NCBI GenBank assembly: GCA_903906315.1
Contig: CAIVJW010000373.1
Coordinates: 1-50,489 of the forward strand
Direction of reading: 5' to 3'
Source of the DNA: an uncultured delta proteobacterium
GTDB lineage: Bacteria > Myxococcota_A > Polyangia > Polyangiales > Polyangiaceae
Length of the DNA: 50,489 nt
Shown: piece by piece, positions 1-3,703 of the stretch
Layout of the letters: every line of letters begins with the position of its first letter
How positions within the stretch are numbered: position 1 is the first letter of the stretch
Notes under the pieces: model-generated
The model's input: only the letters and a program-made list of their open reading frames with translations
Told to the model about the DNA's origin: nothing
The model's database searches: none
Made by a program: the position numbers and the translations under genes

Positions 1-135
1 GCTCTGAACCTCTTGAAGGGCGAGAAGACGAAGAAGCTCAGCCTCGCGGGGAAGCGCAAACTGGCCGGATGGGATACCGCATATCTCCTGCGAGTCTTGC
101 AGAGTGTGGGAACGTCCGCCCCGACCACCGCGTGA
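1..135 (+). CDS. ISAs1-family transposase, C-terminal 44 residues (5' part lies outside the window)
   Basis: Frame 1 is open from the first base to a TGA at 133-135 and reads ALNLLKGEKTKKLSLAGKRK followed by LAGWDTAYLLRVL. This matches the end of ISAs1/H-repeat transposases, where a basic ALNLLK...KR segment is followed by AGWD.xYLLxVL. These DDE enzymes cut and join the ends of their own insertion sequence. Only the tail is present, so the catalytic residues cannot be seen and it is unknown whether the gene is intact. Assignment rests on one short motif, hence moderate confidence. Confidence 0.6.
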   Translation, partial: ALNLLKGEKTKKLSLAGKRKLAGWDTAYLLRVLQSVGTSAPTTA

Positions 136-164
136 GCGACAGGTGGGATGATGACTTTGCCCTG
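1..164 (+). mobile_element. right end of an ISAs1-like insertion sequence
   Basis: The transposase tail stops at 135 and is followed by about 29 bases ending in TTTGCCCTG at 156-164. A short non-coding tail ending in CCCTG (CAGGG read inward) fits my memory of ISAs1-type ends. The left end and target duplication lie outside the window, so the boundary at 164 is an inference. Immediately after it begins a different coding signature (GGSWNN...), which suggests the element inserted into or beside that sequence. Confidence 0.45.
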
Positions 165-280
165 ACCGCGGAGGCAGCTGGAACAACACCGACGCCGACA
201 ACCTGCGTGCGTCGAACCGCAACAGGAACCAGCCAGGCAATCGCAACGACAACCTCGGCTTCCGCTGCGCCCGCTCGGCG
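165..280 (+). other. FGE-sulfatase/C-type-lectin-like tail, resembling a diversity-generating retroelement template or variable repeat
   Basis: In the frame starting at 164 the DNA reads DRGGSWNNTDADNLRASNRN then RNQPGNRNDNLGFRCARS. This is the conserved end of formylglycine-generating-enzyme/SUMF1-type C-type-lectin folds. About ten AAC/AAT codons sit where such proteins in diversity-generating retroelements vary, which is the mark of a template repeat (adenines are the mutated positions). A stop at 152-154 lies just upstream in frame, and no stop follows GFRCARS before 1301, so it is not an intact gene. Two readings fit: a non-coding template repeat, or the 3' end of a target gene cut off by the insertion sequence. 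No reverse transcriptase is in the window. Confidence 0.55.
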
Positions 281-505
281 TCGCCCGTCCGCTCGCGAGG
301 TCAAGGCCTCGCGGCCCGCGCACCGCCGAACCGCTGCCCGGGGCCCGGGCCTCACCGCCCGGGCGACCCGCCGGGCCCGCGCCGCGTCTCCCGGTTCGCA
401 GCTCGGCGGAGGCCACCTGGAGTGACCTCCGCCGGGCGCGAACGCGGCCGCGGCGCGGGCGACGGCCCCGCACATCCGCTCTTCCCAGCCCGCCCGTCGA
501 CCCGC

Positions 506-517: not shown

Positions 518-1303
518 ATGCGCAAGACGAAGCCCCTCGTCGAGTTCGACGCCTCCCCCTACGCCCACGCGCCGACCATCACCGTCTCCACGGGCATCAC
601 CCTCGCTCGTGCCCTGGTGTCGGCCTGCCCCTCGGACGCGCCCTCGAACGTCAAGAAGGCCTGCAAGCACCTCGCCGCCACGGCCGATGCGGCCGAGGGC
701 GATCTCCTCGCGCGCAACCGCGCCCTCGGCGCCTTCACGGAGGAGGACAGTCGCGCCCTCGACAACGAGGCCGACCGGGCGTGGGGCGCTCTCCGCATGC
801 GCCTCCAGGCCATGGCCATGATCGCGCCGGAGGTGACGCCGAAGGCCGCGCGCGCCGCCGAGCTCGAGGCGACGCTCTTCCCGAACGGGACAGGCTTCCT
901 CGCCGCCGAGTACGCCGAGCAGTCGGCCGCGATGGGCACGCTCCTCCGCCAGGTGGAGGAGGACGAGCTCGCCAAGTCGCTGAGCGCCGTCGCCGGCCCC
1001 GAGTTCCTCGCCGCCGTTCGCCGCGTGCAGCCTCGCTACGAGAAGATGGTCTCCGAGCGCCTGCGCCGCGACGCCGCCGTCGGGCAGAACCTGCTCGAGA
1101 CCGTGCGCGCCCTGCAGTCGGCCATCCTCAACCACGCGCAGAAGGTGATTGGCACGGTCGAGCACGATGACCCCTCCACGGTCGACGTCGTGCGCGCGGC
1201 GCTGCGTCCCATCGAGGCGCACCGCGAGGCGAACGGGCGCGCGGCGGCGCCTTCCACCGAGTCGCCGGACCCGGCGCCGGCGCCTGCGGCCCCTTCCAAG
1301 TAG
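518..1303 (+). CDS. hypothetical protein, 261 aa
   Basis: I do not recognise a family. The ATG at 518 is chosen because a TACGTT -10-like element lies six bases before it and because the sequence upstream in the same frame is the FGE-like tail and low-complexity Pro/Arg text. The protein (MRKTKPLVEFDASPYAHAPT...) is predicted soluble and mostly helical, rich in Ala, Glu and Arg. It has regularly spaced hydrophobics that suggest coiled-coil or helical-bundle structure, a Pro/Ala-rich tail (SPDPAPAPAAPSK) and no signal peptide or membrane segment. Codon use is typical of the window, so it is probably a real gene although it sits between mobile-element debris and a toxin-like pair. Confidence 0.7.
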   Translation: MRKTKPLVEFDASPYAHAPTITVSTGITLARALVSACPSDAPSNVKKACKHLAATADAAEGDLLARNRALGAFTEEDSRALDNEADRAWGALRMRLQAMAMIAPEVTPKAARAAELEATLFPNGTGFLAAEYAEQSAAMGTLLRQVEEDELAKSLSAVAGPEFLAAVRRVQPRYEKMVSERLRRDAAVGQNLLETVRALQSAILNHAQKVIGTVEHDDPSTVDVVRAALRPIEAHREANGRAAAPSTESPDPAPAPAAPSK

Positions 1304-3330: not shown

Positions 3331-3537
3331 AAGCAGTTCCTCCGGAAGAACGGGCTACGCGAGCGCTCGTTTCACAGCCTGCGCCACGACTTCGTCACGG
3401 AGCTCGTGCGTCGCGGCGCGAGCCTCGAGGCGGTGCGGACCCTCGCGGGTCACAGCTCGCTCGCGATGACGCAACGGTGCGCCCGTGCGACCGACGCCGA
3501 CCTTCGGACGGCCGTCGAGAAGCTCGGGGCGAAGTAG
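3326..3537 (+). pseudogene. tyrosine recombinase (phage/island integrase) C-terminal remnant, nucleophile Tyr replaced by Cys
   Basis: The frame reads [40 protein letters not shown], then [20 protein letters not shown] and stops at 3535-3537. HSLRHDF carries the His-x-x-Arg of the active site and AGHSS the next His. At the position of the nucleophile, where relatives have TQRYAHA, this copy has TQRC (codon TGC, one change from TAC). The N-terminal core-binding half is missing and the remnant is joined to the broken lipoprotein. It lies 92 bases from the 3' end of tRNA-Pro, a classic integration site, and is most likely a dead relic of an integrated element. Confidence 0.75.
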
Positions 3538-3629
3538 TGCAGGCCCGGCCGGCGGCTGGGCAACGGGCGGGCAACAGCCCCGCGACCGTTCCGTTTCTTG
3601 CTTGTTACCCGGGCAATTCCGACGATTTG

Positions 3630-3703
3630 TCGGGGCGAGAGGATTCGAACCTCCGACTCCCTGGTCCCGAACCAGGTGCGCTACCAGGCTGCGCTACGCC
3701 CCG
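3630..3703 (-). tRNA. tRNA-Pro, anticodon CGG
   Basis: On the minus strand the sequence starts with acceptor CGGGGCG, has a D-arm with AGCCTGGTAGC, and an anticodon arm CCTGG-TTCGGGA-CCAGG. It then has a T-arm with GGTTCGAATC, and closes with CGCCCCG plus discriminator A. The anticodon loop TTCGGGA places CGG at positions 34-36, which reads the proline codon CCG. CCA is not encoded. The 3' end faces the integrase relic, consistent with use as an attachment site. Confidence 0.95.

Follow-up and report, generated by a model that had tools for sequence, protein, structure and literature searches.

A probable orphan template repeat of a diversity-generating retroelement at an insertion-sequence end in a myxobacterial genome

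The window, meaning the whole stretch of DNA analysed here, spans 50,489 nucleotides of contig C373 from an uncultured delta proteobacterium of the Polyangiaceae. The source genome is 8.8 Mb long, lies in 455 contigs and is 98.5% complete. The left end of the window is the edge of the contig, which ends inside a multi-copy insertion sequence (IS). Positions 1-164 (plus strand) are the right (3') end of this putative ISAs1-type element, and 1-135 encode the last 44 residues of its transposase together with the stop. Directly after it, at 165-273 (plus strand), lies an adenine-rich sequence that appears to be the template repeat (TR) of a diversity-generating retroelement (DGR), followed by a spacer. 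The first gene 3' of the TR encodes a DUF6261 protein (518-1303, plus strand; PF19775) and is outside the DGR. In relatives the family has as many as a dozen paralogues in a single genome. Further along are an AbiEii-like nucleotidyltransferase (1856-2482) and the C-terminal fragment of a tyrosine recombinase (3334-3534, plus strand; PF00589, E 3e-10), which adjoins tRNA-Pro(cgg) (3629-3703, minus strand). The recombinase fragment beside the tRNA suggests that the TR probably sits in the remains of an eroded tRNA-linked genomic island. An empty-site comparison through the DUF6261 neighbour found its closest homologue in relatives in a different context with no DGR, and no syntenic intact locus.

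The IS end is shared with other contigs of the genome. Window positions 1-164 are 99% identical to the right ends with which three further contigs, C237, C375 and C225, start. All four right ends diverge immediately after the terminus GATGATGACTTTGCCCTG (CCCTG), and the match of the window ends exactly at TTTGCCCTG. Left ends of the same IS, starting with CAGGGC, are found on three contigs, so that four right ends were assembled versus three left ends. The element has inverted terminal repeats (CAGGGC..CATCATCCCAC / GTGGGATGATG..GCCCTG), and 10-bp target duplications were detected at two other copies (C347/C237: AGCTCGGACC; C128/C225: GGAGGAAGGG). Comparison with the ISAs1 family covered inverted terminal repeats, a target duplication of 8-10 bp and an ISAs1-type transposase. 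The CAGGG/CCCTG ends and the 10-bp duplications at the other copies resemble that family, and the transposase type may do so; unlike in full elements, only the last 164 bp lie in the window. The 44 C-terminal transposase residues of the window have no Pfam match. The transposase N-terminus at the C195 left end gives a weak PF13808 match (26 positions, below the curated cut-off), and the C-terminus resembles, as judged by eye, a PF13808 transposase on C343. These weak fragment matches tentatively suggest a transposase of ISAs1 type. If this copy behaved like the two others, from which the length is taken, its target-site duplication would be ACCGCGGAGG at 165-174 (plus strand), inside the TR. 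A left IS junction with ACCGCGGAGG was not found in the assembly. Contig C195 was considered as the partner of this IS end and is unsupported: its flank GGGGCGAGGG differs from ACCGCGGAGG, and there is no DGR repeat on it.

Frame 2 of the window reads RQVG, two stops and LCPD before RGGSWNNTDADNLRASNRNRNQPGNRNDNLGFRCARS. The peptide of 165-273, RGGSWNNTDADNLRASNRNRNQPGNRNDNLGFRCAR, is an FGE/C-type-lectin tail (GGSW...GFRCAR), and the repeat has nine Asn codons (eight AAC and one AAT). An earlier note on this DNA had described an AAC-rich tail of this type with about ten Asn codons, preceded by a CCCTG end and an in-frame stop. The description holds with the count of nine; the stop is a TGA (152-154), with ten bases between it and the end of the IS. 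The start given there, position 156, falls inside the IS, whereas host sequence begins at 165; the observation is otherwise confirmed. After the window itself, the sequences of this genome that blastn ranks next are TRs belonging to two DGRs, those of C415 and C313 (82% over 93 nt, E 2e-19; 81%, E 7e-19), and matches of 77-80% over 102-135 nt were found at DGR loci of three related genomes. The resemblance to TRs is therefore not chance. By comparison with relatives, about 7-12 nt of the TR 5' end have been cut off by the IS at 164/165.

Adenine content and flanking sequence separate TRs from variable repeats (VRs) at related loci. At 27 A per 100 nt, the window repeat falls within the range of 11 related TRs (23-30) and above that of their VRs (5-15), and its A positions are common to the TRs of relatives. 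The reading frame stays open for 345 codons past the repeat, while most VRs stop within 12 residues. The 70-80 nt 3' of the repeat align with the 70-80 nt that follow the TRs of three relatives (G024:C477, G016:C228 and G027:C41); nothing similar to this spacer was seen in VR flanks. Because the repeat combines a TR-level adenine content, no downstream stop and a TR-type spacer with a hairpin, its identification from sequence as a TR, and not as a VR or truncated target gene, is well supported. The suggestion of an orphan template repeat in the earlier note is thus supported. Its alternative was a target 3' end cut off by the IS. For an FGE gene, ordinary or DGR-diversified, the peptide does look like the tail of the protein, but the 345 codons without a stop, the adenine content of TRs and a flank homologous to TR spacers rather than to VR flanks make this most improbable, and it is rejected.

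The spacer contains a hairpin, TCGCGAGG-(TCAAGG)-CCTCGCGG, at 293-314 (plus strand; 8 pairs). Compensatory changes are present in relatives: CGCGCGG-(TCAAGG)-CCGCGCG in G024 and CGCACGG-(CCACGG)-CCGTGCG in G016. Among bacterial TR flanks from many phyla (loci L120-L199), 34 of 61 have a stem score of at least 5 around a [TC][CTA]ANGG loop, with 0.5 expected from shuffles; none of the 53 bacterial VR flanks has the hairpin. The loop pattern was chosen after viewing some of the bacterial flanks and was therefore retested on 80 virus-contig loci (L201-L280) fetched afterwards, in which TRs were identified solely through adenine-specific mismatches. The hairpin was found in 25 of 64 TR flanks (23 of 57 after removal of duplicates) and in 0 of 64 VR flanks; the background was about 1%, whether measured on dinucleotide shuffles or on windows drawn at random from these loci. 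In 22 of the 23 virus-contig cases the loop lies 14-37 nt from the estimated TR end. One covariation count used sequences selected for pairing and is inflated; the bacterial TR and VR flanks and the virus-contig retest are unselected.

A covariance model built without the window has its top match in the 50-kb window at 278-330 (20.3 bits, E 0.011; E 0.0002 within the first kb). A second match in the 50 kb reaches 19.0 bits and is presumably chance, and the hairpin match alone is weak over that length. The folding energy of the window spacer is ordinary for its composition (z -0.16), so the argument from the hairpin rests on conservation and not on energy. A hairpin of this class is also present at the C313 TR (39.3 bits). 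Searches against Rfam 15 gave no matching family. No paper describing a shared hairpin was found in a search of mainly open-access literature, which is not proof of novelty.

Downstream of the hairpin, the trailer CTGCCCGGG (334-342, plus strand) is conserved after the TRs of three relatives. In these, a leader upstream of the TR, CCCGGGCAG, is complementary to the trailer, and minimum-energy folds join the two regions. The window retains the trailer, and the leader has been removed by the IS. Published work on the Bordetella phage BPP-1 describes a folded spacer that contains the priming adenine and to which the complex of reverse transcriptase (RT) and accessory variability determinant (Avd) is recruited (PMC12875486). 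We see about an even chance that the YYANGG-loop hairpin, placed 14-37 nt downstream of the TR, represents a general, uncatalogued RNA element of bacterial and phage DGR template RNAs, which would probably be a docking or priming part for RT-Avd and could be used to recognise orphan TRs. The hairpin is most likely the part of this work that will be of general use.

At least four other DGRs are present in the same genome, and across them VRs differ from TRs by 84 changes at A sites and 0 elsewhere. On C415 (L026) the target is a Ser/Thr kinase-FGE fusion (PF00069, PF03781) whose 3' end is the VR, accompanied by Avd (PF22296), a TR and an RT carrying the motif IGSLTSQ. Here the VR departs from the TR at 20 of 27 A sites and at 0 of 73 others. 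The C313 DGR comprises a TR, two VRs, Avd and an RT whose motif reads IGNLTSQ (17 and 20 of 25 A sites changed, 0 of 75 others). C55 (L028) has a kinase-FGE target with a VR, a TR and a broken RT, with changes at 13 of 25 A sites and 0 of 75 others. The RT gene there is interrupted by an ORF (L028 5727-6203), presumably encoding a GxxExxY protein. Both the C415 and C55 targets are Ser/Thr protein kinase-FGE fusions with the VR at the extreme C-terminus. On C223 there are a target, which we take to be DUF1566-like, Avd, a TR and an RT that is truncated at the contig edge (14 of 26 A sites changed, 0 others). Over a wider set of 46 loci, the 53 VRs matched to TRs show 852 A-site versus 16 other mismatches, a contrast partly built in, as the search admitted no more than 3 non-A mismatches in 84 nt. 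C375 (L002/L075) and C185 (L003) carry two RT ORFs of a different type, one of them beside a Cas2-like ORF; on reading, these are possibly RT-containing CRISPR loci.

The window locus shares its TR sequence and FGE-type VR class with C415, C313 and the related DGRs of G024:C477 and G016:C228 (L120, Myxococcales bacterium SKS1.bin3). The 3' spacer hairpin is common to the window and these DGRs except C415, and the trailer is common to the window and the relatives. Unlike the window locus, which has none of them, these DGRs have RT, Avd and VR. In the nearest complete loci of relatives (L076 and L080) the target is forward, RT and Avd are reversed and the TR is forward. Incomplete copies also occur. 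G027:C41 (L077) has a TR without an RT nearby, with Avd and an FGE relic, and G024:C88 (L078) has a shortened TR and no RT nearby. Decayed DGRs therefore recur in this family.

Partners for the window TR were sought throughout the assembly. No cognate VR was found by a genome pattern search with the non-A positions of 203-244 (at most 3 mismatches, A positions free). At the other compared loci of this genome the closest sequence differs from the window TR at at least 18 of 80 non-A positions, and the near-repeat differing at A positions alone that the earlier note had proposed to look for is absent from the assembly. There is no DGR-type RT (xGxxxSQ) in the window, and genome-wide no DGR RT beyond those of C415, C313, C55 (a broken gene) and C223 (truncated at the contig edge), each with its own TR. 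The x-G-x-x-x-S-Q type of reverse transcriptase that this note proposed to search for does exist in the genome, as IGSLTSQ on C415 and IGNLTSQ on C313, but at other loci with their own TRs, and neither is cognate. Genome-wide, Avd (PF22296) is confined to C415, C313 and C223, and the TR leader pattern is absent. The C223 RT fragment was also considered as the missing partner and was rejected, since C223 is a distinct DGR locus equipped with a target, an Avd and a TR.

TRs may work in trans when they are recognised by an RT, and the one in the window could be used in this way by another DGR of the genome, for example that of C313. Such use was inferred for some Thiohalocapsa PB-PSB1 loci (PMC10907252). 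The window retains the hairpin typical of TR RNAs, which is of the same class as in the C313 TR. However, the assembly contains no VR that agrees with the window TR at non-A sites, and the TR 5' end and the leader are lost, which leaves trans use very unlikely.

Positions 165-342 are thus very probably the TR and structured 3' spacer of a DGR whose other parts are gone from this place. The TR was probably beheaded by the IS and is most likely a dead remnant. In a working DGR the TR and spacer are transcribed, RT-Avd is bound by the spacer RNA, cDNA synthesis starts at the 3' end of the TR, template adenines are mutated and the product homes into the VR, as established for BPP-1. The original locus would have had the order of the nearest relatives, with a forward target, reversed RT and Avd and a forward TR. 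The IS would have entered the TR a few bases from its start and duplicated 10 bp; the left IS junction is absent from the assembly. Since RT and Avd of the relatives lie left of the TR, everything except the TR would have lain left of the insertion. A transcript of the window would be devoid of the leader, leader-trailer pairing, TR 5' homology and a homologous target. Homing is unlikely because the leader, the TR 5' homology and the VR are missing.

The fate of the other parts can be read in two ways. The remaining DGR parts may be present on the left side of the IS, in an assembly gap. The DGR would then have been intact until the IS inserted recently, and an uninterrupted version may persist in some cells. 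Multi-copy ISs commonly break assemblies, and the contig ends within one; one more right end than left ends was assembled, and the assembly is fragmented. Intact and transposon-damaged versions of one DGR coexist in Thiohalocapsa PB-PSB1 (PMC10907252). Against this, the rest of a nearly complete genome contains no RT, Avd, VR or leader for this TR, and several kb would need to be missing, beyond the junction itself. If the repeat is a TR, a gap is a serious but minority prospect. The complete DGR that the earlier note thought might sit just outside the window is unconfirmed: the assembly contains neither the left IS junction nor an RT, Avd or VR that fits this TR. Deletion of the rest of the DGR, perhaps by IS-mediated rearrangement, is somewhat favoured over the gap.

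Transposon-damaged DGRs in multi-DGR genomes have already been published, and the window locus is a new example. Thiohalocapsa PB-PSB1 has several DGRs per genome with CLec/FGE targets, and incomplete loci degraded by IS and MITE elements (PMC10907252). The genome studied here is similar in having several DGRs, CLec/FGE targets and transposons that replace or interrupt RT or TR. In PB-PSB1, however, RT or TR is replaced and VRs survive, whereas in the window the TR and spacer survive and RT, Avd and VR were not found; the window locus also belongs to a myxobacterial family, unlike those of PB-PSB1. The BPP-1 DGR (AY029185) likewise has an adenine-rich TR followed by a structured spacer, and GCCAA-CGCTACGGC-TTGGC is seen by eye about 27 nt after the TR. 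It differs in its order, mtd-avd-TR-brt on one strand, and the covariance model missed its spacer.

The locus is a myxobacterial example of a DGR template decapitated by an IS, in a genome where at least four further DGRs are present, and it extends what has been published on the erosion of DGR arrays by transposons. A TR-specific signal was needed to distinguish TR from VR at this broken locus, and the comparison yielded a template-RNA spacer hairpin that is present in bacterial and phage DGRs, with none found beside targets. If the hairpin holds, it would provide a sequence handle on template recognition by RT-Avd and a means of finding orphan or trans-acting templates.
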